This document shows positions 12,087 through 39,416 of a stretch of DNA of 50,133 nucleotides, piece after piece. Where the stretch lies: IMG/VR virus record IMGVR_UViG_3300032050_000206, positions 1-50,133 of that record. One strand, written 5' to 3'. The stretch comes from a virus. Both the position numbers and the translations under genes were made by a program. The notes below the pieces were generated by a model. The model made no database searches and was not told the DNA's origin. It worked only from the letters and a program-made list of their open reading frames with translations. Position 1 is the stretch's first letter; the number at the start of each line of letters is the position of its first letter.

Positions 12087-15000
12087 ATGGAACCGCTTCG
12101 ACTTGGCAGAGTCCCAGATCCACTCGGACTTGGAACAAATGAGTTTGAGGAGCCGGGTGCTAATCTGTTCAAGTCGAGCGGAGAGGCATACCGGCAGGAT
12201 GTTGCACCTCGCACACGAGAATCTGCGCCGGTACAGCTTGCCCAAGCCCCGCAGGCGGGGTCGTTTAAGTTCGACCTCTACGGCGGCCCTTCCCAACCTG
12301 CCGCCTCCCCACCCGCTCCCGCCAAGAAGGATGGCGTGTTCAAGTTCGACCTCTACGGTGGCGAGGCTAAGCCTGAAGTTGCGCCTGCCAAGCCTGCTGT
12401 AGAACAGGGTGACACCTCTCGCGGCTTCTCCGCCGCTCTAGGTCAGACCCCTGCGCTCTTGAAGGGTGCGGTTGGGTTTGCTGGTGCTGCTGGCGAGAAG
12501 ACCTTCGGCGAAGGTGGCATGTTCACCGCGCTCAAGAAGTACGGCCTCGAGGGCTACAAGAAAGGCATGGGCGAGATCGAGGCGCGCGCCAAAGAAACAG
12601 ACGACGTCACCGTTGCGTGGGACAAGGCCAAGCAGGGCGACCTCGGTGCGCTGGTGGACTGGGCGCAATACGGCGTCGGCTACCTCGGTGGCAACATTGT
12701 TGAAACAGTCGGTACCTCTGTGCTGGGTGGTCTGGTAGGTGGCGCGATGACCGGGCCTGCTGCGCCTGTTGGTGCGACTGGTGGCGCGGTAGCTGGCGTT
12801 GTAGGCAAGGAGGCGGTCAAGGGCGTAGCCAAGAACCTGATCGAAGGCATGGTGGCGAAGGAAGCTGCCAAGCTGGCGGAGAAGGCTGGCGTTGAGACTG
12901 CCACGGATGTGATGGTCAGACAAGCTACCAAGAACGTAGCCAAGAGTATTGGTGCTGGCACGGCTTTGGCTGGCTCGGCCATCATCAAAGAGACTGGCGG
13001 CATTTACGCTGAACGGGAAGAGCAAGCCAAGAAAGAAGGCCGCGAGCTAGACGGCGGTGACTTGGCTCGCGTCTTTGGTGCTGGCGTGGTGGCTGGCATG
13101 TCCGAGATGGTGGTGGACAAGTTGGGTCTCGACGTTGCAGCAGGCAAGATCAAGATCCCCGGTGGTGGCCGCGTGGGTCGTGCCTTCGTTGGTGGTGTGG
13201 CGGGTGTAGGCATTGAAGGCGGTCAGGAACTGTTCCAGACAGCCGTTGAGCGTGCCGGTGCTGGTCAGGCGTTGACCGGCGAAGAGGCAATGCGCGACTA
13301 CATCAACAGCTTTGCGTTGGGTGGTCTGGGTGGTGGCACCGTGGGTGCGATCTCCGGTGCCTTGCGGTCGGGTAAACAAGATTCTGACACCGTAAGAAAA
13401 CTTCTGGATGACGCTCAGAAGGAGATGTCCTCCGACGATGGGCGTGCCGAGGTCTTCACCGCCATGATGAACGACGAGAAGCTGCGTCCGATTCTCGAGG
13501 CGAACAACATCCAATCTGGCGATGACCCGAGGTTTCAGAGCGTCATCACCCGGGCAATCTCGACTCAGAAGATGCTGGCCGAGCTTGAAGCGCCTACGCC
13601 CCAGCAGCAGGAGGCAAAGCGCAAGGAGCGTGAGGCTGACGTACAAGCTGCGTTTGGCGACACCGCGTCCACAGCAGTCGGGTCGAACATGGGGGCGAAC
13701 GAACCCCTGATCCAACGTGAGTCGGTTACCCCTAACGAAGAGACCAAGACACTCGAGGGGGTGGCTCAACCAGTGAGCCTGCCGGGAACAGATCAACAGA
13801 CTGTGACAGATCAACAGACTGGCACGCTGGCGATGTCTGGCGAGGATCTAGTCTCCGCCAAGCAGGGCTTCCAAGTTCTGCCTGCGTTCTCTACCGGCGG
13901 TACACCGCTGGCCAACCGCTTCGTATCCATGAACCAAGCCGAGACCTTTTTGTTCGGCCCCGTCAACAAGGAAACTGGTGAAAGAGAGGGTGGTTACGCA
14001 AGCTCTGTTGAGGACATGGAGTTCCAGATCCGACAGGGCAAGCGGTCGAAGGAGACCGGTGGTGGGACGTTCTACTTTATCGAGGGTCGCGCCAAACCTG
14101 CGGATGTCACCGCAACTGCGGCACCGACCACCGCAACTGCGGCACCCACAACGCCAGCACCGGGGTCATTTGATTTCCCAATTGCGAACGTCCGCCGCCC
14201 CAATGGCGCGATTGGCAATCAAGGCGTAACGGAATCTCGGGTCTTTGATGTGTTGACCAACGTCGCTGGGATGAATCTCAAGGGCGACATGTCGATGCGC
14301 GAGATGGTCGATGCGTTCAAGGCAGATTCTCAAGCTCAGCAGCGTTTGCGTGACTTTACTGCTCAAAACCCAGCGGTCGTTACTGCGTTGCCTGATGGGT
14401 CGTTCGATCTAAACGACGGCAACCACCGAACATTCCTGTTGAATCAGATTGGAGATGAAACGGTTCGCGCCGTCATCAAGAACCAACCAACCACAGGAGG
14501 AACGAATGCCACTCAAACAGGGACGCAGCAACAAGGTGGTCAGCCAGAACGTCGGGGAACTGATGTCGGCGTACCAACGGAAGGGAAAGATCGGAAACAG
14601 CAAACCACCAAACAAGCAAGCAGCACTGAAGCAAGCGCAGGCAATCGCACTGAGCAAGGCGGGACGAAGCAAAAAACCGTAACCAAGACTGAGCCGAAGA
14701 AGACCGTCGAGCAGGAGATCAAGGAGAAGCAGAAGTCCAAGCGAACCAAGACCACCAAGGTCGATGAGAAGACTGAGCCGACCAAGCGCGACGAGGAACA
14801 GAAGAAGGCTGACGAGAAGATCGGCAAACAGAAGGCCGATCCGAAGAAGGTCATTGAAGACTGGGAGGACAACGACGACGGCCAATCTCCGCACGTCGCA
14901 TGGGACAACCTGTCCGACGAAGCGAAGAAGATGTGGACTGAGGCTGTCGAGGACGGCTACAACAACATCATGACTCATGACCTCATCGTGGATGGTGAGG

Positions 15001-18000
15001 CCAAGAATGCTCGAGTCGCTCGCGAACCCAAAGCACGCCCTATGTTCCGCCAGACCAAGGGCGGCAAGGGCATGTCTGTTGAGGCTGTCGGTACGTTTGT
15101 TGATCGGATGGTCAAGGCGTGGAAGAACGTCCCTGCCATCAACATCGTGCAGTCGGAGAAGGATCTGCCCGAGGTATTACAGAGGTTCATTACTCGCGCA
15201 GAAGCAAACGGCAAGGTACCGGGTATCTACTGGCGCGGCGAGGTGTACCTGATTGCTGACAGTCTCGTGGACAACAGAGACGTTGGCATCACCGTCATGC
15301 ACGAGGTAGCTGGACACTTCGGCCTGCGCTCCATTCTTGGCGAGAACTTCGGCAAGACGATGGATCAGATCTACGACGGCAACGCGACCGTTCGTAAGCT
15401 GGCTGACGCAATGATGAAGAAGGAAGGTCTGACTCGGCAGGAAGCTGTCGAGGAAGTCCTTGCCGATATGGCGCAGGATCGTGCGTCACCGAATCGCGAG
15501 TTCCTTGCTGCTCTACGCCAACTGTTCGCGGCCATCCGTAAGTGGGCACGCGATACGCTGGGCGTCACCTACATGAGCGACAACGATGTGCGTGAAATCG
15601 TTGCTAACGCTCGACGCTTTGTGGTTAGCGGTGAGCAAGAGGTTGCGACCACTGAGGCTGAGCCTGCATTGGCTCGTCAGAAGGGCGCACCGACGTTCTA
15701 CTCGCAGCTCGAGCGTGAGACCCGTGGTGCCAAGCAAGAGAAGGCGACAGCCAAAGATTGGAAGGCCATCCTCTCCAAGCTACCCGGTGTCAAGAAAGAG
15801 GAGGTGGAGTGGACGGGCGTCGATAACTGGTTGGATCTACCGGCGCAACAGAACCGACAGATTACCAAGCAGGAAGTCCTGAACTGGATTGCTGGCAACA
15901 AGCTACGGTTAAACGACGTACTGTTGTATGGCCGTGGCAGATTCCTGTCGGAAGGTGAACTGGTCACGATGTACGAGGAGCAATTCGTTGGGCGCGAAGA
16001 AGAGATGCCTTTAGATCCTTATACGCAGGATCGCGAGACGCTGCTAGACGAACTTGGCTTGGCCTCTAGTGAGACGGGTACCAAGCACGCACAACTGACA
16101 CTAAAGGGTGGTAGGGAATACGCTGAGCTTGCGCTGATGGAGGTTAGCGGGAAGACCAAGCCCTATAAGCGCAGCGATGAAATCCACATGGGCGATGTCA
16201 CCAAAGGCAGGGCGATTGGCTGGCTTCGCATGAAGATCCGTAAGGACAAGCAGGGTAACGATGTCCTGTTCCTTGAGGAGTTACAAAGCCAGCGTGGTCA
16301 GGATATGGGCAAGGGGTTTGATGTTCCTCCCGCTCCGTTTGTTGGCGACACTCGTGCATGGACTGCGCTGCTGCTGAAGCGTGCAATTGCCTATGCTCAA
16401 GAGCAAGGCATAGACCGCATTGCATGGACTACGGGTGAGCAACAGAATGAGAGGTACAAGTTCCCCGGCGATGAGTTGCTCTACACCCTAAATAAAGCCG
16501 ATAACACGTACAAGCTGACGGTAGCTAGGCAGGGTCGAGAAATCCACACTGCCGAGGGCGTCTCACCAGAAAAGCTAAAGGAATACGTTGGTGAGAAATC
16601 ATCCGAATACATAACGAATCGCGACAACTCTTATGTAGAGGACGACAAGACAGCGTCGGGTGTAATTCGTGGCGACGATCTGAAACTGATGGCTGCCAAC
16701 CTAGCGCCGTACTACAACCAGACGGTTCCGTCTGTTTCGAAGGACATCATCAAGAAGTACGGCGGCAGCGTTGAGGTCATGGAACTCGAGGACACTGGCA
16801 AGCAGCTAGGCTTCGTTATCCCCGAGAGCTTGCGTCAGATCGTTGCTGAAGACGGCCTGCCCATGTTCCGTCGCAAGGACTACGAGGCGCAGTACGCCGA
16901 CCTACCCGAGAGCACCCGACAGATTGCACTGGCCAAGGGTCACTACTCTCCGCCGTCGATCAGGGAGCGCCTCGAATCTCTGAAGCCCAACCTGTGGCTG
17001 CGCGTCGTGCAAGGTACGTTCGACCGCTTCCGCAGTGTGCGCGACATCGACATGAAGGCGTACATCATGCTGCGCATGTCGTCGGCAACCGACGGTGCAG
17101 TGGAAGGTCTGCTGCATTACGGGCAAGTGTTCAACGACGACGGTGCGCTGAATGTAAAGAAGGGCACGAAGGGTCTGATCGAGATTATGCGCCCGCTGGG
17201 TGGCGAGACAGATCGCTTCCTGCTGTGGCTTGCGGCCAACCGTGCGTCGAATCTAGCGAAGGAAGAGCGCGAGCGGTTCTTCAAGCCGGATGAGATCAAG
17301 GCGCTACAGAAGCTCAATGCTGGTTCGATGAAGGATGGCAAGTCCCGGTATGCGGTGTATGCCGAAGTTCAGCGGCAGATGAATGAGCTGAACAAATCTG
17401 TTCTCGAGTTAGCTCGCGACACTGGGTTGATTGACGCTGCTGCATTCAAACGATTCTCGGAGGACGTCTGGTATGTACCGTTCTACAGGCAGATGGATGA
17501 GGACGGTACTCTTTCGGCGGCGAACACTTCCTCGGCAGCGGTAGGTCAGTATCTGTCGAAGAAGCTGAAAGGCTCCGAGCGTCCGTTGAACGACCTGATG
17601 CAGAACGTGCTGATGAACTGGTCGCACATTCTGTCCGCGTCGATGAAGAATGCTGCGGCTAACGAGACCTTGAAAGCTGCGTCGAGCATGAACGGCGTTG
17701 TGTCGCGCCTGACCCAAGTCGATAACCGCTTCGGTAAGGATGCAGCGGGTAACGTCGTTGCCTTGAAGTATGCGGTCAAGGTGATGGAGAACGGCAAGGA
17801 GGTCTACTACAACATCGAGGACGAGTTCCTGTTGGCGTCCTTGGATGCGGTGGCATCGATCCCGAGCTACGGCATGTGGACGACGTTGGGTCGTGAAGCG
17901 AAGACGACGCTTACCCGACTGATCTCTCTGTCGCCGACGTTCAAGATCAACAACCTGATCCGTGATTCGATCCAGTCGATTGGTCTGTCCGAGCTGTCGG

Positions 18001-19508
18001 GCAGCCCGATGGCTAACGTGATGCAGGGCTGGAGGGCGTACAAGGACAACCGTGCCGAGGCATTGGTGGGCGGTGGTCTGTTCTCGCTAGGCAACGCCTT
18101 TGACGGCGACCGGTCTGCTGCGGTCAAGCGCCTCATCAACAAGGGTGCTGACAAGGCTGACATCCTGACGACGCAAGAGAAAGCTACTGCGTGGTTCAAG
18201 AAGTTCCAAGACAAGTACGACGAAGTGTCGGATGCGTCCGAGAATGCGAACCGCATTGCCCTGTATGAACAGATGAGGGCGAAGGGTGCGACGCACCTCG
18301 AGGCTGCTTACGCTGCTCGTGACTTGCAGGACTTTGGGTTGCAGGGATCGTGGGTGGCCATTCGTTATGCGGCCATGCTGCTGCCGTACTTCAACGCTCG
18401 CTTGCAGGGTATGTACAAGCTGGGCCGCGACGGGATCACGCCGAACCTCGAGGTGCTGTTGGGCACAGCAGACGACAACGCTCGACAGAAAGCAGCCAAG
18501 TTCAACGTGGTTCTGGGTGCGGTAACGCTGGCTGGTCTGGCGTTGTATCTGTCCCAGAAAGACGACGACGATTGGAAGAAGCGGGAAGAGTGGGATCGGG
18601 ATTCGTTCTTCTGGTTCAAGATCCCCGGCACCAAGCACATCGTGCGGGTACCAAAGCCCTTCGAGATGGGTGCGGTAGCGTCGGTGATCGAGCGGTTTAC
18701 CGAACAGATCGTGGACTCGGAAGCTGAGGGCAAGGTGTTTGGGGCGCGGCTGCTGGCCATCCTCCACGACAACCTTGCGATTAACCCGATCCCGCAGGTG
18801 GTTCGTCCGCTCTACGACATTGCGCGTAACAAAGACGGCTTCACGGATCGCCCGATTGAGTCCACCGGCAAGGAACGTCTGTCGCCGGAGATGCGGGTCA
18901 ACCCGAACACCTCGGCTGCGGCAGTGGGTCTGGGCAAGATCAACGCGATGTTTGCGAACTTCGCTTCAGCGGTGACAGGTGGTGCGGTCAACGCCGACAA
19001 CATGAAGCTCTCGCCGATCCAGTACGACTATCTGTTGAGGGGCTATCTGGGCTGGCTTGGCACGGTGATCGAGACCACGTCCAACGTAGCGGCGCGTCCG
19101 TTTAAGGCTGGCGAGACGCCGGACATGAAGGTCGATGACATCTTGGTGGTAGGCAACTTCGTCAAGGAAGTGCCGTCGTCCCAGTCCAAGTACACCACCA
19201 GCTTCTACGAGAACGCCAAACAGATTGCCACGGCTAACGCGGACTACCGTGCTTATCTAGCGGCGGGTCGGATAGATGAGGCGAAGGAAGTGCTCGATGC
19301 CAAGCGCGACCTGATTGTGCTGAACAAGCTGTACACGAACATGGAGGACAAGTTGTCCACGATCTCCAAGCGGATGCAGATGATTAACGACGACGAACGG
19401 ATGTCCGGCGAGGAGAAGCGGCTCGAGCTGGACAGGCTGGCTGCCTTGCGGATCGAGCTGGCTCGCCGGGTGGAAGAGGTCAGGATCTCTCGTAAGAAAG
19501 GTGAATGA
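12087..19508 (+). CDS. Giant polyvalent internal virion protein (2473 residues)
   Basis: Phage polyvalent proteins combine many effector domains and are thought to be injected with the DNA. In order: a twice-repeated FKFDLYGG motif near residues 60 and 85; a glycine/alanine-rich, membrane-active-looking region (about 190-450); a ParB-like segment with DLNDGNHR near 773; a charged KE-rich linker (about 800-940) carrying an overprinted gene; a zincin-like site HEVAGH at 1072-1077; a module with LEELQSQRG near 1395 seen in other polyvalent proteins; and a C-terminal part resembling the LPD38 domain (about 1950-2280) with a hydrophobic stretch near 2140-2157. It likely forms part of the ejected core and may protect incoming DNA or disarm host proteins. 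Domain names are from motif recall only. Confidence 0.75.
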   Translation: MEPLRLGRVPDPLGLGTNEFEEPGANLFKSSGEAYRQDVAPRTRESAPVQLAQAPQAGSFKFDLYGGPSQPAASPPAPAKKDGVFKFDLYGGEAKPEVAPAKPAVEQGDTSRGFSAALGQTPALLKGAVGFAGAAGEKTFGEGGMFTALKKYGLEGYKKGMGEIEARAKETDDVTVAWDKAKQGDLGALVDWAQYGVGYLGGNIVETVGTSVLGGLVGGAMTGPAAPVGATGGAVAGVVGKEAVKGVAKNLIEGMVAKEAAKLAEKAGVETATDVMVRQATKNVAKSIGAGTALAGSAIIKETGGIYAEREEQAKKEGRELDGGDLARVFGAGVVAGMSEMVVDKLGLDVAAGKIKIPGGGRVGRAFVGGVAGVGIEGGQELFQTAVERAGAGQALTGEEAMRDYINSFALGGLGGGTVGAISGALRSGKQDSDTVRKLLDDAQKEMSSDDGRAEVFTAMMNDEKLRPILEANNIQSGDDPRFQSVITRAISTQKMLAELEAPTPQQQEAKRKEREADVQAAFGDTASTAVGSNMGANEPLIQRESVTPNEETKTLEGVAQPVSLPGTDQQTVTDQQTGTLAMSGEDLVSAKQGFQVLPAFSTGGTPLANRFVSMNQAETFLFGPVNKETGEREGGYASSVEDMEFQIRQGKRSKETGGGTFYFIEGRAKPADVTATAAPTTATAAPTTPAPGSFDFPIANVRRPNGAIGNQGVTESRVFDVLTNVAGMNLKGDMSMREMVDAFKADSQAQQRLRDFTAQNPAVVTALPDGSFDLNDGNHRTFLLNQIGDETVRAVIKNQPTTGGTNATQTGTQQQGGQPERRGTDVGVPTEGKDRKQQTTKQASSTEASAGNRTEQGGTKQKTVTKTEPKKTVEQEIKEKQKSKRTKTTKVDEKTEPTKRDEEQKKADEKIGKQKADPKKVIEDWEDNDDGQSPHVAWDNLSDEAKKMWTEAVEDGYNNIMTHDLIVDGEAKNARVAREPKARPMFRQTKGGKGMSVEAVGTFVDRMVKAWKNVPAINIVQSEKDLPEVLQRFITRAEANGKVPGIYWRGEVYLIADSLVDNRDVGITVMHEVAGHFGLRSILGENFGKTMDQIYDGNATVRKLADAMMKKEGLTRQEAVEEVLADMAQDRASPNREFLAALRQLFAAIRKWARDTLGVTYMSDNDVREIVANARRFVVSGEQEVATTEAEPALARQKGAPTFYSQLERETRGAKQEKATAKDWKAILSKLPGVKKEEVEWTGVDNWLDLPAQQNRQITKQEVLNWIAGNKLRLNDVLLYGRGRFLSEGELVTMYEEQFVGREEEMPLDPYTQDRETLLDELGLASSETGTKHAQLTLKGGREYAELALMEVSGKTKPYKRSDEIHMGDVTKGRAIGWLRMKIRKDKQGNDVLFLEELQSQRGQDMGKGFDVPPAPFVGDTRAWTALLLKRAIAYAQEQGIDRIAWTTGEQQNERYKFPGDELLYTLNKADNTYKLTVARQGREIHTAEGVSPEKLKEYVGEKSSEYITNRDNSYVEDDKTASGVIRGDDLKLMAANLAPYYNQTVPSVSKDIIKKYGGSVEVMELEDTGKQLGFVIPESLRQIVAEDGLPMFRRKDYEAQYADLPESTRQIALAKGHYSPPSIRERLESLKPNLWLRVVQGTFDRFRSVRDIDMKAYIMLRMSSATDGAVEGLLHYGQVFNDDGALNVKKGTKGLIEIMRPLGGETDRFLLWLAANRASNLAKEERERFFKPDEIKALQKLNAGSMKDGKSRYAVYAEVQRQMNELNKSVLELARDTGLIDAAAFKRFSEDVWYVPFYRQMDEDGTLSAANTSSAAVGQYLSKKLKGSERPLNDLMQNVLMNWSHILSASMKNAAANETLKAASSMNGVVSRLTQVDNRFGKDAAGNVVALKYAVKVMENGKEVYYNIEDEFLLASLDAVASIPSYGMWTTLGREAKTTLTRLISLSPTFKINNLIRDSIQSIGLSELSGSPMANVMQGWRAYKDNRAEALVGGGLFSLGNAFDGDRSAAVKRLINKGADKADILTTQEKATAWFKKFQDKYDEVSDASENANRIALYEQMRAKGATHLEAAYAARDLQDFGLQGSWVAIRYAAMLLPYFNARLQGMYKLGRDGITPNLEVLLGTADDNARQKAAKFNVVLGAVTLAGLALYLSQKDDDDWKKREEWDRDSFFWFKIPGTKHIVRVPKPFEMGAVASVIERFTEQIVDSEAEGKVFGARLLAILHDNLAINPIPQVVRPLYDIARNKDGFTDRPIESTGKERLSPEMRVNPNTSAAAVGLGKINAMFANFASAVTGGAVNADNMKLSPIQYDYLLRGYLGWLGTVIETTSNVAARPFKAGETPDMKVDDILVVGNFVKEVPSSQSKYTTSFYENAKQIATANADYRAYLAAGRIDEAKEVLDAKRDLIVLNKLYTNMEDKLSTISKRMQMINDDERMSGEEKRLELDRLAALRIELARRVEEVRISRKKGE
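14506..14682 (+). CDS. DUF6496-like small basic protein overprinted inside the polyvalent gene
   Basis: This 58-residue gene lies in another forward frame within the giant gene. Its ATG is preceded five bases upstream by a strong AGGAGG, and it reads MPLKQGRSNKVVSQNVGELM, then NKQAALKQAQAIALSKAGRS and a lysine-rich end. That is the usual pattern of the short DUF6496-type phage proteins (MPLK.G.S..VIS.N... followed by KQAVAIALSKAG), which are normally free-standing genes. The host frame here encodes a low-complexity linker rich in Q, T, K and E. Both the ribosome binding site and the family match argue for real expression. Its function is unknown. Confidence 0.75.
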   Translation: MPLKQGRSNKVVSQNVGELMSAYQRKGKIGNSKPPNKQAALKQAQAIALSKAGRSKKP

Positions 19509-33790: not shown

Positions 33791-34084
33791 TTAATTCTCC
33801 TGAGTGGCGAGTAGGTCTGAAGCGTGACCGATGAATGCGCGGCGAGAGTCGTCGATCATCTCTGCGATATGTTCACCGCTGTAGTTCTCGACTGCTTCCC
33901 AAGGGAAGATGGTGTCGGGGTTATCTTCGTCTTCATCTTTTTCAAAGATGAATCCCCCGCCCACCTGACAATCCTCTTTCAGACAGTCGATGACTGTCTG
34001 GTATGACCACCCGTCGGGGTAATCGGAAAGCCACTGCCCTAGTGCGAATCTTTCGGCGGCTTGTTCGAGTGCTGTTCTGTTCAT
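33791..34084 (-). CDS. Acidic hypothetical protein
   Basis: This 97-residue protein (MNRTALEQAAERFALGQWLS) is acidic, with VIDCLKEDCQVGGGFIFEKD and EDEDNPDTIFPWEAVENYSG; a DNA-mimic or protein-binding role is possible but unproven. GGGGA precedes the ATG. Its coding sequence contains three perfect hairpins (6, 9 and 9 pairs, all with three-base loops) at 33894-34000, which mark the start of the hairpin-dense region. Confidence 0.65.
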   Translation of the reverse strand: MNRTALEQAAERFALGQWLSDYPDGWSYQTVIDCLKEDCQVGGGFIFEKDEDEDNPDTIFPWEAVENYSGEHIAEMIDDSRRAFIGHASDLLATQEN

Positions 34085-34101
34085 CGTCTGTTCCCCTTTC
34101 G

Positions 34102-34203
34102 TTAGAGCACTGCCTTGATTAGCAACACCCCGAGCAAAGTGCCGAGAGTTGCGCCGGTAATTGCTGCGATCCAAACACGCAGCATGATTGCGTCCTGTGT
34201 CAT
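34102..34203 (-). CDS. 33-residue membrane peptide
   Basis: This very short gene encodes MTQDAIMLRVWIAAITGATL and then GTLLGVLLIKAVL, one membrane-spanning helix. A GGAGG six bases before the ATG supports it. The 10-base element CGTGAGTTGC (34212-34221), shared with two other leaders, lies just upstream. Function unknown. Confidence 0.6.
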   Translation of the reverse strand: MTQDAIMLRVWIAAITGATLGTLLGVLLIKAVL

Positions 34204-34211
34204 GTGTCCTC

Positions 34212-34221
34212 CGTGAGTTGC
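34212..34221 (-). repeat. Leader repeat, partial copy
   Basis: The first ten bases of the leader repeat (CGTGAGTTGC) recur here, nine bases ahead of the start codon of the 33-residue membrane peptide. The rest of the repeat is absent. Confidence 0.45.
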
Positions 34222-34272
34222 GTTGTCCGAGGTGTAACCTCCGTGTATGCACTCGGTGAATGCACACGCGGA

Positions 34273-34291
34273 GGGGGTGCGCCGCACCCTC
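34273..34291 (-). terminator. GC hairpin after the VWA-like gene
   Basis: A six-pair stem GGGTGC/GCACCC with loop GCC, extended outward by a wobble and one GC pair, lies just past the stop of the VWA-like gene on the minus strand. No T-run follows, so termination is uncertain. It is also one member of the hairpin-dense region. Confidence 0.4.
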
Positions 34292-34299
34292 CCCTCATG

Positions 34300-35175
34300 T
34301 CATGCGGCCTCGAGGTTGCCAGCCTCGATCTGTTGGATAACAGATTCGATCCACTGCTCGGCGGCCTCTCGCGACAGCACATCCTTCTGGATGAAGGTGT
34401 TCTGCGGAATCGGCAGCAACTTGATGCCTTCGGCAATGGTCTTGTTCGACGGCCTCCCCATGCTGTCGCAGACAGTTTCGCCAGCGTTATCTGCTGCAAA
34501 GCAGATGCCGTTGAACAGGTGGGTTCTAAAGAACCCCGGCAGGGCGGTGAGTGCGGCAAGCCGGTCGATGTCGAAGGGTGAATCCTCACCCTTGATCTCG
34601 ATCAATTGAGCGAGGCGATTGTCGCTGTCGCTCTCGGTGTAGCTACTGCAAGCCGCCGCAGCGTAGATGGCTACGTTGTAGCCAGCCGAGACCAGCTCAC
34701 CGGCCAGCCGTAAGGCTGAAGCACCGCGCCAGAACAGCTCGTCAGCATCGACGTTCCAAGCAGCGGCCAAGTCAATCACTATGGTGATTGAGCGGACACC
34801 GGTTCTGGATTGACGGCGAGTCTTAGTCCAAGCCCGGGACAGATCGCCGCGCCAGACCGCTTGCATATCGACTTCGTCGCCCTGATCGCTACGAATCCGA
34901 CGACGACGAACCGAAGCTGGCGAAGCCAGATCGCGGAGGGCGATCTTTTCCAGCTTAGCGACACCCTCCGGCCAACCCTCATCGAGGGTTTTGAGTAGGG
35001 TCGGAACATCCTTAACGCCCAACCACGAGAGTCCTTTCTCGCGGGTCAGGAAGGACTCGGCCAGTTCGCGGTTCCGTGGCTTGCGCCACTTGCTTTCGTC
35101 TTTGACGAAGGACACCGGTTCGTTGACGCTATCCCAAAGGATGGCGGTCAGCTTGTTTTGCTTTTCAAGCAACAT
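34300..35175 (-). CDS. VWA-like partner of the AAA+ ATPase
   Basis: This 291-residue protein follows the AAA+ gene by two bases, with GGAGG before its ATG. Residues about 128-200 read SITIVIDLAAAWNVDADELF, then LRLAGELVSAGYNVAIYAAA, the strand-helix-strand order of a von Willebrand A domain. The metal-site DxSxS is DLAAA, so metal binding is probably lost. Pairs of MoxR/CobS-type AAA+ and VWA proteins act as chaperones or chelatase-like machines that remodel a client. The client here is unknown. The coding sequence is full of short hairpins. Confidence 0.7.
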   Translation of the reverse strand: MLLEKQNKLTAILWDSVNEPVSFVKDESKWRKPRNRELAESFLTREKGLSWLGVKDVPTLLKTLDEGWPEGVAKLEKIALRDLASPASVRRRRIRSDQGDEVDMQAVWRGDLSRAWTKTRRQSRTGVRSITIVIDLAAAWNVDADELFWRGASALRLAGELVSAGYNVAIYAAAACSSYTESDSDNRLAQLIEIKGEDSPFDIDRLAALTALPGFFRTHLFNGICFAADNAGETVCDSMGRPSNKTIAEGIKLLPIPQNTFIQKDVLSREAAEQWIESVIQQIEAGNLEAA

Positions 35176-35177
35176 GG

Positions 35178-36341
35178 TTACACCTCCACTTTCTTGCGTT
35201 CGTCGGCTTTCCAGCCGGTGAAGTAGGTCTCGCGGATCTGTTCGAGAGAGCGGCCTGCCTTGACCAACTTCGTTGCGTCAAGAAGGAAGCGAGTTGACAT
35301 CACTCGAGACAGCCGAAGATCTACGATCTTCTTGCGGACAGCCCAGCCCCAAGCCAGAACCTCGGGATCGACTGCGGCACGTTCGAACTTCTGGTCGTAG
35401 TCCAGAAGTACAGTCCCAGCACGGAATCGATCTAACGTCGATTCGTCGAGACGTTCCCGACCGGCATAGACCATGTTGGCTCCGGTACCGAAGGTATTGG
35501 CAGCGGCGAGACAGACGAAGTCTGGGTGGCGTTTGACTTGCGTCCTACCCTTCCTCTGAGGAAGGTAGAAGCTGCCGTTGGCAAGGGCTTGGTTGATGAA
35601 CAGCAGAGTGTTCGGGTCAGCGGCATCGACTTCGTCGAACAGAAAAACACCGCCGTTCTCATACATAGTGACGAAGTCACTAGGGATGTACTCGAAAGCT
35701 CCGCTTTCGCCGGGAAGCATCCAGCCGGTCAATTGCGACTCCGACATCCCGGCAGTGCAGGAGATCGACGCAAACGGACGGCCAAGGGCTTCAGCCACTT
35801 GGTGAGCCAAGTGAGTCTTGCCGCAACCGGCAGGGCCGACCAACAGAATGTTGAGGCCGCAAATCGATGCCTGAAGAACGTCCTGAAACTCAGGACGGGT
35901 GTGGCCTTCGACCTTGACGGTAGAACCGTCAGGACGCTTGACCTCGATCTGTACGACAGGAGACCGCTCCAGTGCCGAAGTAACTTCGGCAGCGACCAGT
36001 TCGCGAACCTTAGCTTCGCTAACGGCATTGCCAGCCAAGCTGGCAAACAGAGCGGCAATCTGGTGTGCTACGGCATCCTGATTGACCGGGGTACCAGCCG
36101 AAGGCTGAGGTTGAGCCGGAACCGTTGTGACACCGGCAGCTACACCAGCCTTAACGGCTGGCGAGAAGCAGACCACGTCAACAGCGGCTTGGATTTGCTC
36201 AGGACTAAAGTCCTGTAGCAGTTTGTCAACGCACTCGGTTTTCTTGAGGCGTTCGTGGTCGAAGCCAACGGCTCCGCCGTTCAAGTGTTTGAACAGATCG
36301 AGGATGGCTGCCTTCGGCAGTTGCAGGAGTGTGTCTCTCAT
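35178..36341 (-). CDS. MoxR/CobS-like AAA+ ATPase
   Basis: This 387-residue ATPase has an N-terminal helical region (about 1-120), then the AAA+ core: Walker A GPAGCGKT at 169-176, an early MSESQLTGWMLP pore-loop region, Walker B VFLFDEVDAAD near 232-242, sensor-1 CLAAANTFGTG and the arginine finger in TLDRFRAG. The subtype resembles CobS and MoxR proteins, which work with VWA partners, and such a gene follows directly. ATP-driven remodelling of a host or phage target is inferred. The ribosome binding site AAGGA lies inside a perfect six-pair hairpin (36346-36360). Confidence 0.9.
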   Translation of the reverse strand: MRDTLLQLPKAAILDLFKHLNGGAVGFDHERLKKTECVDKLLQDFSPEQIQAAVDVVCFSPAVKAGVAAGVTTVPAQPQPSAGTPVNQDAVAHQIAALFASLAGNAVSEAKVRELVAAEVTSALERSPVVQIEVKRPDGSTVKVEGHTRPEFQDVLQASICGLNILLVGPAGCGKTHLAHQVAEALGRPFASISCTAGMSESQLTGWMLPGESGAFEYIPSDFVTMYENGGVFLFDEVDAADPNTLLFINQALANGSFYLPQRKGRTQVKRHPDFVCLAAANTFGTGANMVYAGRERLDESTLDRFRAGTVLLDYDQKFERAAVDPEVLAWGWAVRKKIVDLRLSRVMSTRFLLDATKLVKAGRSLEQIRETYFTGWKADERKKVEV

Positions 36342-36376
36342 GGCATTTCCTTTCAGGAAAGGGTTGGGACAAGGGT

Positions 36377-36391
36377 CGTGAGTTGCTGATT
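36377..36391 (-). repeat. Leader repeat, copy 2
   Basis: This is the second full copy of the 15-base element, 36 bases upstream of the AAA+ start codon. The common GGGGTGC tail follows six bases later and becomes part of a hairpin (36399-36413). Confidence 0.7.
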
Positions 36392-37320
36392 CGAGGTGGG
36401 GTGCAGAGCACCCTGCACAGGACACGGCTACGAGGAGGCGAGTCCTGCACATGAAGCTCTGCTTTGTGTGAGCGGCAAAAAGGCCGCATGGAAGCCCTAC
36501 CGGCTTCCCCTCTCGCCAGCCGAAGGCTGTAGAGCGATTGCCAATCGCCGCCTTCGGGAGCTTCCCTTCGGGAACAAGTCCCTCCGGAGTCCGACTGTCT
36601 CGCCGCCGTGGTCGGTCGAACCGTTCGGTTCAGTGCGTCACCGGGTAGCTCTGCTTAGCCCCCTTCTACGAAGGGCTTCACCTATCGGCATCCCGGTGCT
36701 TTCAGCACCTACTGGTCGGGTTGTTCAGCGTTGCCGCCGAATCGACCCTTCCATAGCACCACGAAACTTGACGGTGTGTCAAATCGGCTTGTTTATTCCG
36801 TAGGAATACTTGTTGGGCTGTCGGAGTCTGTCGAGGTCAGCCCGGAACCCTTCGACCCCTGCCATGCCGTATGCGGCTATGCAATGGATCGCGAGTGATG
36901 CAGAGGGCATCGTGGAGGTCGCTAACGTGAGCGAGTGCTATCGAGTTTTCGCAGGAGAGCCAAAGGCTCCGCCCGGAAAACCTTGGACACCAGCCGTCCC
37001 GATGTCTGCTTCGCTCTAAAGAGCGTCATAAACACCAGAAGGCCACCTGATTGGCTCTGCTTCAGGACACTAAGTGTCTGAAGCAAATAAGGAACAGGCC
37101 AGACGAAAATTGGGGTTCCCGAAGATTCACGCGGACTGACGAGGAAAAACAGAGTTTTCCCTCGGCCATCGGCAACAGACCACAACAGATTGCTGCCTAA
37201 AGCGAAGCTTTAACGCTACGAATCAGCACAAACGAGGCACAGTCACTAGCTAAAGCTAGTGTTTATGGGGGTTTCAACCTGATTTCGCATCACGCACGAA
37301 GCCCGAAGGGCTGGCAGGCA

Positions 37321-37699: not shown

Positions 37700-38008
37700 A
37701 TGGCAACTCGCAAACCTAAAGAAGAGCTTTCCAAGAGGCGTGAAGCCTTGCGGGAGGAGCACGCTGTTGCGGTTCGTGAGCGCATTCAGACGACGCAACT
37801 GGTGGAGCGGTTGCAGAAGTATGCGATGGGTGATCCTAACGTGAAGATGAATGGGACTCGGTTGAAGGCGATTGAGATGTTGTTGGACAAGACGCTACCG
37901 AATCTGTCGTCGGTGAAGCACGAGGTGGATGCCAAGCAAGTAACTTTCTTGATAGACACAAGTCCACCGGATGACGGGAACAACCATTCAGTACAGGCCG
38001 CCCGGTAA
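37700..38008 (+). CDS. Probable small terminase subunit
   Basis: This 102-residue protein begins MATRKPKEELSKRREALREE and is helical and basic; it directly precedes and overlaps the large terminase by 38 bases, the usual place for the DNA-recognition subunit. A middle segment (GDPNVKMNGTRLKAIEMLLD) resembles the oligomerisation region of such proteins. No classical helix-turn-helix is obvious, so the name rests mainly on context. It opens the late operon; no good ribosome binding site precedes the ATG. Confidence 0.65.
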   Translation: MATRKPKEELSKRREALREEHAVAVRERIQTTQLVERLQKYAMGDPNVKMNGTRLKAIEMLLDKTLPNLSSVKHEVDAKQVTFLIDTSPPDDGNNHSVQAAR

Positions 38009-39416
38009 GGTAGCGGCGGCATTTCACAAGTCGGACGCTTTTGTTCGCGGGATCAAAGGCCCGGTCGGGTCGGGCAAGTCATCGACTTGCTGCATGGAGA
38101 TCATCAAGCACAGTTTGAAGCAGACGCCGCATAACGGTTGGCGGAAGGCTCGCTGGGCGGTGATTCGGAATACGTATCCGGAGTTGAAGTCCACGACGAT
38201 CAAGACGTGGGCGCACTGGGTGAATGATGAGATAGCGCCGATCAAGTGGGACGCGCCCATTACGTGCAGTATGAAGATCAAGGACTGCGGGGATGGGAAC
38301 GGGTTAGACCTTGAAGTGATCTTTATTGCGTTGGACAAGGCCAGCGAGACTGGGAAGTTGCGGTCGCTGGAATTGACGGGTGCGTGGATCAATGAAGCTT
38401 CGGAGGTGCCTCGTGAAGTTTTTGACATGGTTACGCAACGGGTGGGGCGTTATCCGGCCAAGACTCATGGAGGTGGGCCGGTACATCCTTGTGTCATTCT
38501 TGACACTAATCCACCGGATGACGACCACTGGTATTACAAGATTGCAGAAGAAGACACCCCCGAAGGATGGGAGTTCTTCGATCAACCCGGGGGGTTGATA
38601 AGGATTCAGGAGGGGGAGGCGGTTGATTACTTGCCGAACCCTGACGCGGAGAATGTGTTCAATCTGCCGCAGGGGTTTGAGTACTACCTGAAGATGTTGG
38701 GTGGTAAGTCGGACGACTGGATCAAGGTCTTTGTGCTTGGCCAGTACGGCACGACGGCGGACGGCAAGCCTGTTTATCCTGAGTACAACGACAAGATCCA
38801 TGTCGCTGACGAGGGGCTTGAGTACAACCCGATGTTGCCGGTTTATCTGGGTTGGGACTTTGGCCTGACGCCAGCGTGCATTGTGGGTCAGGTTTCCCCG
38901 AAGGGTCAGCTCCTCATCTTGGATGAGTTTATTGCTGAGGACATGGGGATCAGGCAGTTTGCGGCGGAGGTGGTCAAGCCTGCGCTGATGAACAAGTATC
39001 AGGGCATCAGTCGGTTCATCTCGATGGGTGACCCGTCGGGGGTCAACCGCTCCCAGACTGACGAGCGTACCTGTTATCAGGAGCTGCTCGAGGTTGGGAT
39101 TTCGTCGGAGCCTGCCGACACCAACGATTTCATACCCAGACGAGAATCGGTCGCTTTCTTCCTGAACAGATTGGCGGGCGGGGAGGCGGGGTTCTTGTTG
39201 TCGCCGAACTGTAGGCAGTTACGGAAAGGCTTTCTGGGTGGGTACCGATATGAGCGACTGAAGGTGGCGGGGGAAAGATACCGCGACCGTCCGGTCAAGG
39301 ATCGTTTCAGTCATCCGCATGATGCGCTTCAGTACTTATGTCTGGCGGTCAGGCAGGGTGGCAAGAACGTGCGAGCAAGAACAGTGACGAGAAAGTCCAA
39401 CAAGGCTTGGACTTAG
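37971..39416 (+). CDS. terL: Large terminase subunit
   Basis: This 481-residue packaging motor has an N-terminal ATPase with Walker A KGPVGSGKSS (about residues 29-38) and a Walker B-like GAWINEASEVP, and a C-terminal RNase-H-like nuclease with LGWDFGLTPACIVGQ, SMGDPSG and SHPHDALQYL giving the acidic metal ligands. It cuts concatemeric DNA and pumps it into the prohead through the portal encoded next. Two perfect hairpins (38074-38090 over the Walker A codons and 38581-38599) lie in the coding sequence. Confidence 0.95.
   Translation: MTGTTIQYRPPGKVAAAFHKSDAFVRGIKGPVGSGKSSTCCMEIIKHSLKQTPHNGWRKARWAVIRNTYPELKSTTIKTWAHWVNDEIAPIKWDAPITCSMKIKDCGDGNGLDLEVIFIALDKASETGKLRSLELTGAWINEASEVPREVFDMVTQRVGRYPAKTHGGGPVHPCVILDTNPPDDDHWYYKIAEEDTPEGWEFFDQPGGLIRIQEGEAVDYLPNPDAENVFNLPQGFEYYLKMLGGKSDDWIKVFVLGQYGTTADGKPVYPEYNDKIHVADEGLEYNPMLPVYLGWDFGLTPACIVGQVSPKGQLLILDEFIAEDMGIRQFAAEVVKPALMNKYQGISRFISMGDPSGVNRSQTDERTCYQELLEVGISSEPADTNDFIPRRESVAFFLNRLAGGEAGFLLSPNCRQLRKGFLGGYRYERLKVAGERYRDRPVKDRFSHPHDALQYLCLAVRQGGKNVRARTVTRKSNKAWT

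Follow-up and report, generated by a model that had tools for sequence, protein, structure and literature searches.

N4-type hairpin promoters have stems of 5–7 bp and 3-nt loops. The early-promoter hairpins of phage N4 lie near the end of the genome that is injected first, extrude at physiological supercoiling, and need a C-G closing pair and a G..A loop to do so (PMC4496689). In RNA genomes, the single-stranded RNA (ssRNA) phages MS2, Qbeta and AP205, like the ordered genome structures of RNA viruses, carry an excess of hairpins in coding and non-coding sequence. Here we describe a hairpin-packed block (33932..37261) in the window, by which we mean the whole 50,133-nt stretch analyzed (IMG/VR virus record IMGVR_UViG_3300032050_000206, positions 1 to 50,133), a virus contig from a podovirus-like phage. 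The block covers the start of a leftward operon that is divergent from the terminase genes and is made up, in order, of a ∼1 kb leader, an AAA+ ATPase gene and a DUF7192 gene (called VWA below, after its name in an earlier sequence-only reading of this DNA). We tentatively favor the reading that structure is under selection at the level of DNA, with interchangeable mini-hairpins being maintained across the promoter-proximal 3–5 kb of the operon.

A scan for perfect, non-overlapping hairpins (stem ≥6, loop 3–8) found 37 of them, with stems of 6–9 bp and loops mostly of 3–4 nt, in 33894-37261. The sequence-only reading had counted about 35, which holds, and had put the chance expectation at two or three, which is slightly low, as dinucleotide shuffles of the same interval (n = 200) gave 4.9 ± 2.1 hairpins with a maximum of 11. 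Stems of at least 7 bp number 22 against 1.5 in shuffled sequence and those of at least 8 bp number 8 against 0.33; 3-nt loops are the commonest (19 stems, 0.6 expected), and inverted repeats with loops longer than ∼8 nt are close to chance level. When synonymous codons were shuffled with the protein kept (n = 1000 for each gene), the AAA+ gene gave 2.15 hairpins (maximum 7) and the VWA gene 1.6 (maximum 7), compared to the 14 and 10 observed. Both null models thus fall far below the observed numbers, which rules out chance or base composition as the cause. A copied or dispersed repeat element (REP/BIME or similar) is ruled out because the hairpin sequences differ, as had been recognized by eye, and a known non-coding RNA is rejected as there was no Rfam match in the window block or in six relatives. 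The spacing of the hairpins is near random rather than regular. The block is the sole such cluster in the 50 kb record, the remainder of which is near chance (mostly 2–12 hairpins per 3.4 kb) with a shoulder flanking the block on each side.

The AAA+ gene (AAA_5, CobS/MoxR-like; PHROG 249, for which the PHROGs label is porphyrin biosynthesis) lies at 35178..36341 on the minus strand and encodes 387 aa from the ATG at 36341, within a longer open reading frame (ORF) that extends to 36452. It contains 8-bp hairpins at 35879..35897, 35973..35991 and 36028..36046. The VWA gene (34300..35175, minus strand, 291 aa) contains two more, at 34574..34593 and 34772..34791, and both 9-bp hairpins (33932..33952 and 33980..34000, each with a loop of 3) fall within a small ORF 3′ of it (33791..34084, minus strand), the acidic protein of the sequence-only reading, whose likely start is the ATG at 34084, preceded by AAAGGGG. 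The positions quoted there for all seven of these hairpins were reproduced exactly by the scan, and the bulged stem it reported at 37058-37085 is visible in the sequence.

Relatives of the AAA+ gene were gathered from viral contigs, and ∼30 related contigs, every one of them metagenomic, carry the same block. Its onset lies 0.2–1.5 kb before the AAA+ gene, its density is ∼12 hairpins per kb near the start and fades over ∼5 kb downstream, and the carrier genomes examined at length have one hairpin cluster apiece. The window and its relative L002 are identical at 83% of nucleotides in AAA+ and 72% in VWA, and share the positions of 10 of the 14 AAA+ hairpins and 6 of the 10 VWA hairpins, with stems often identical under changed loops (whole-codon changes included) and several pairs compensated. 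The first hairpin of the block (37244..37261, CACTAGC-TTTA-GCTAGTG on the minus strand) and the one at 34574..34593 are the same in L002. At 34772..34791 the stem is identical and the loop differs, and at 34974..34990 an identical 7-bp stem encloses a loop codon that has been replaced entirely (GAT to TCC). One compensatory base-pair change separates the two phages in the 7-bp hairpin at 35915..35931, and two such changes do so in the 6-bp leader hairpin at 36399..36413. The covariation that the sequence-only reading had proposed to look for is therefore present among relatives, although compensatory changes are expected for mRNA structure and DNA hairpins alike.

The same pattern is seen across the relatives, with the qualification that the loci are not independent and that several counts take each comparison in both directions. 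At fourfold-degenerate sites in close pairs, divergence within stems is mostly far below that outside (for example, 0/23 vs 49/160; 0/23 vs 22/169; 2/30 vs 29/167), and loop sites diverge like sites outside hairpins. Among the base pairs of shared leader hairpins (both directions, n = 387), 330 are unchanged, 22 compensated, 7 G.T, 7 A.C and 16 other; the corresponding numbers for shared coding hairpins (both directions, n = 1533) are 1452, 26, 12, 11 and 32. In distant relatives most hairpins occupy new positions at similar density, and because they relocate in this way the conserved property is the density of short perfect hairpins, not given sites. The excess is confined to stems of 5–8 bp, with none at 10 in pooled scans and a ceiling at ∼8–9 bp, and hairpins are equally dense in the conserved AAA+ gene and the non-coding leader. 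Near nucleotide 91–93 of AAA+, L031/L044 and L030/L047 have alternative hairpins with unrelated stems at the same spot, distributed against the AAA+ tree, which suggests recombination of hairpin-bearing segments.

Relatives with AAA+/VWA genes and no hairpins, which the sequence-only reading had thought might count against it, do exist: they include L016 (AAA+ 72% identical) and L006/L021 (68%), which the AAA+ tree places among carriers with moderate support at the relevant forks. The AAA+ frames of these relatives are open, as is the VWA frame of L021, and therefore the proteins do not need the hairpins; the signal in the other ∼30 loci stands. A tie to AAA/VWA proteins as such is rejected, as many relatives are without hairpins. 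No link to an accessory gene was found either, since the hairpin-free genome G005 has nearly all core genes, and the one gene family that it lacks is a reading frame antisense to the giant ORF. No block was found in cultured phages with a related AAA or terminase large subunit (TerL).

The array is tied to the start of the operon. A conserved non-coding promoter-leader element of ∼250 bp, P1 (36555..36808, minus strand; TTGACA at 36782-36777, core at 36713-36581), is 68–84% identical in most hairpin-bearing relatives and is present in most of the carriers whose leader is complete; L022 and L045 have hairpins without a recognizable P1, and L019 has a P1 fragment only. There is no P1 match in the hairpin-free L016 and L021 (the L021 locus extends just 187 bp upstream of AAA+), and L062, also free of hairpins, has a weak partial match. 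When P1 was used as a probe, nearly all full-match contigs with enough downstream DNA had ∼8–14 hairpins/kb downstream, with one at 4.2. Conservation of P1 is far clearer in sequence than in structure covariation: considered as a folded RNA it gave a weak RNAalifold covariation term and single-sequence z-scores that are not significant, and it has no Rfam match. A second conserved non-coding element, P2 (37290..37448, minus strand; core GGGGAGATAGGTAGAGGCTCA at 37390-37370), lies nearer the terminase, occurs also in hairpin-free L062, and is a candidate promoter, cos or pac site. Hairpins begin just inside P2 in the window's subgroup and after P1 in the L028/L044/L030 subgroup.

A packed operon is also found in a second phage family. 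Its first member, L208, came from a motif scan and, having a terminase of its own, belongs to a different phage group. Of 87 contigs that lack both the AAA+ gene and P1, it has the highest count, at 30 hairpins per 2 kb, and the runner-up has 12, a frequency biased by the fact that the retrieving motif is itself a hairpin. In this family, which we take from sample numbers to be largely marine, the operon is divergent from the terminase genes; about ten relatives carry it, at a density of 15 hairpins per kb that fades over 5–10 kb. The family is represented at L208:10495-12753, at L249:8000-20000 and in L224-L238, and over 3.3 kb three of the relatives have 45, 33 and 33 hairpins against 1.9–2.6 in shuffled sequence (10–13.6/kb vs ∼0.6–0.8). 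The first genes of the operon are unrelated to AAA+/VWA; further down lie a CobS-like AAA+ gene (L249:12522-13508) and a gene whose 604-aa product weakly matches cobaltochelatase (L249:13501-15315). Eight cultured phages with related terminases have no block.

What has to be explained is an array that starts with an operon, keeps or compensates its stems, leaves its loops free, turns over its positions at constant density and stops at stems of ∼8 bp. The sequence-only reading had listed RNA structure selected on the leftward transcript, binding sites of a structure-recognizing protein, folded single-stranded DNA, and local template switching. A selected single-stranded mRNA is expected to favor G.U pairs. 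In near-perfect hairpins with one mismatch, sense G.T and A.C number 22 and 32 (7 and 13 in the second family), and substitutions between relatives within hairpins gave 26 G.T and 28 A.C. Sense G.U thus has no advantage over A.C, and the pattern needs more than sense RNA to explain it. Triloops in the leaders of the window's family (family 1) have a 5′C-G3′ closing pair in 63/88 cases vs 40/120 controls and GNA, on either strand equally, in 42/88 vs 16/120, and C(GNA)G loops are also a feature of DNA mini-hairpins; TTTA/TAAA tetraloops are also favored, and a loop length of 3 is preferred in the non-coding leader too. ViennaRNA energies were uninformative for comparing these loops, as the parameter sets do not distinguish one triloop sequence from another. 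From the strict pairing, the strand symmetry, the family 1 loops and the tolerance of turnover we infer that the selected form is a DNA hairpin, extruded or single-stranded, and of the four suggestions folded single-stranded DNA appears to fit the loops and the wobble data best.

Under selection at the DNA level, the hairpins would form under negative supercoiling or in the single-stranded state, shortly after the DNA has entered the cell or during transcription of the operon, which is probably expressed early, and extrusion would proceed in the manner of the N4 early-promoter hairpins. Their role is most likely collective, because density matters and sequence does not: together they might absorb torsion and/or hold opened DNA in a folded state that resists nucleases and R-loops, although to name torsion, single-strand protection or R-loop control as the particular role is a guess. 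Still more guardedly, we propose that this may be a new genome architecture of double-stranded DNA (dsDNA) phages, namely a sequence-indifferent array of perfect DNA mini-hairpins, present in two families and spread across the promoter-proximal kilobases of one operon next to the terminase genes, that is selected for its density and acts physically (on torsion, single-strand state or R-loops) with no recognition of individual sites.

Several observations weigh against DNA as the selected form. The onset at the operon start and the downstream fade fit RNA equally well, and none of the single-stranded DNA phage controls has such a density. As the hairpin-free L016 and L006/L021 sit among carriers in the AAA+ tree, the array has probably been lost in at least two lineages without obvious gene loss. 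The ssRNA phages likewise have G.T equal to A.C, presumably due to folding of both strands, so that the wobble result tells against sense RNA alone and does not in itself speak for DNA. The loops of family 1 are not strand-neutral (sense TTT/TCT 39 vs AAA/AGA 17), and those of the second family are A-rich and without the GNA signature. Finally, hairpins are depleted from about −30 to +30 of the AAA+ start (coverage 0–0.15 vs a background of 0.19), a depletion that is not clear at the VWA start, nor in the second family (one locus).

The strongest competitor, which we nevertheless consider unlikely, is selection at the mRNA level, in which the leftward transcript forms a chain of small hairpins and keeps its main ribosome site free of them, so as to resist RNases, Rho loading, backtracking, R-loops or an antiphage RNA-targeting system. 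The avoidance of hairpins at the AAA+ ribosome-binding site and start indicates that they fold, or matter, in the mRNA there. A transcript-based role would also account for a block that starts at P1 or P2 and fades downstream, for the hairpin-dense DNA downstream of nearly every full P1, and for the ssRNA phages, which have a weaker version of the same excess (2.8–3.5/kb). The location, the promoter onset and the depletion at the AAA+ ribosome site agree with the RNA structure first suggested for the leftward transcript. What does not agree is that G.U is not favored over A.C, whether in standing near-perfect hairpins or in substitutions, and that UNCG/GNRA tetraloops are not enriched in the family 1 leader, where triloops dominate.

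We are more doubtful that mutation alone made the array, through local template switching (quasi-palindrome perfection) on highly transcribed or single-stranded DNA, with constraints from proteins and ribosome sites acting as a filter. In yeast, quasi-palindrome mutation is known to accompany transcription (PMC3820800), and perfect stems, the absence of a wobble preference and a promoter-proximal fade are all to be expected of such a process; leader stems moreover change at the rate of their surroundings, often as compensated pairs. However, hairpins gained or lost between relatives differ in both arms in 42/46 cases and have one arm unchanged in only 4/46 (a test weakened by recombination between lineages), and compensated leader pairs (22/387, 0.057, vs a site divergence of 0.119) are rarer than unbiased copying of one arm onto the other predicts. 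The equal density in the conserved AAA+ gene and the non-coding leader and the sharp ceiling at 8–9 bp are also difficult to reconcile with it. The arm-change pattern and the equal density thus disfavor template switching as the sole cause.

It is very improbable that the hairpins are many DNA-hairpin promoters or binding sites for one sequence-reading protein, as for the N4 virion RNA polymerase. In the size of their stems and loops, and in the C(GNA)G loop, the hairpins do match N4 early promoters, but stem and flank sequences are not shared, dozens of the sites lie within genes, and no N4 polymerase-like protein was recognized: the family matches of the 2473-aa ORF of the window are limited to LPD38 and to PHROGs of unknown function, and its PDB matches do not include the N4 polymerase, in a sequence search that could miss remote relatives. 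The hairpins may, as suggested earlier, be sites for a structure-binding protein; they have no common sequence. Given shared hairpin positions and compensatory changes across many independent assemblies, intact reading frames and one block per genome, it is hardly credible that metagenome assembly or whole-genome amplification produced the hairpins as an artefact, although every carrier is metagenomic and many contigs end near the block.

Beyond the packed operon, the window phage encodes an integrase, a Sak annealing protein, a DnaB-like helicase, the 2473-aa polyvalent protein and a TerL (37971..39416, plus strand) with 39% identity to its BcepC6B counterpart. TerL is preceded by a small gene (37700..38008, plus strand), a putative terminase small subunit named by its position, for which family searches gave no match; both genes are divergent from the packed operon. 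Going by L062, a hairpin-free relative in a metagenome-assembled genome, one might guess that the hosts of family 1 are Limnohabitans or similar betaproteobacteria of fresh water. Giant proteins of 2200–2500 aa occur in both families (12087-19508 on the plus strand of the window; L248:13121-19846, minus strand), with an LPD38 domain in the window copy and no family match for the L248 copy.

An unusual share of contigs (L014, L018, L020, L021, L030, L032, L033, L035, L036 and L047) have their ends at various points less than 1.5 kb before the AAA+ gene. The hairpins may hinder sequencing or assembly, or genome ends may lie there; a fixed genome end at the block is rejected, as the break points vary between contigs. 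The contig ends of G005 and G011 (L066/L068 and L089/L091) have an identical 123-bp end overlap in two different contigs. This looks like an artefact of assembly, probably with the assembler's k-mer overlapping at the ends of genomes that are circular or terminally redundant. The annotated direct terminal repeat of L097 (Sinorhizobium phage phiM5) contains, ∼0.5 kb in, the start of the AAA+ operon, which has no hairpins there; this hints at a genome-end location for operons of this kind.

Dozens of unrelated perfect hairpins within conserved genes, at a density above that of any ssRNA phage tested, are a strong selective (or mutational) signature. If selected, they point to a physical constraint on the DNA or RNA of phages for which we have found no description, our search of open-access papers having returned no account of such an array; if mutational, local mutagenesis that generates hairpins would have in this virus a natural example of exceptional strength. 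The conserved P1, together with hairpin-bearing and hairpin-free sister phages, provides natural controls.

Compared with known systems, the array shares with the ssRNA phages a hairpin excess in coding and non-coding sequence and the lack of a sense G.U preference, and differs from them in belonging to a dsDNA phage, in being limited to one operon, and in reaching 7.5–12.4 hairpins/kb vs 2.8–3.5, a 3–4-fold higher density. Like the coding palindromes of nematomorph mitochondria (PMC6649704), it consists of perfect inverted repeats inside conserved protein-coding genes; those palindromes are up to 284 bp long, whereas the stems here are 6–8 bp, recur about once per 100 bp, and show both conservation and turnover across relatives. 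Quasi-palindrome template switching (PMC3820800) similarly perfects the arms of inverted repeats and is tied to high transcription, but is a type of mutation rather than an array, and the arm pattern here misfits it as sole cause. The array resembles the early promoters of N4 (PMC4496689) in its short stems and 3-nt loops, with an excess at 5–8 bp and a loop of 3 as the commonest. The C-G closing pair and G..A loop of N4 are strongly enriched in family 1, though not in the second family, and are not universal. N4, however, has three promoters of conserved sequence with a cognate polymerase (PMC4496689), whereas here dozens of unrelated hairpins run through genes.

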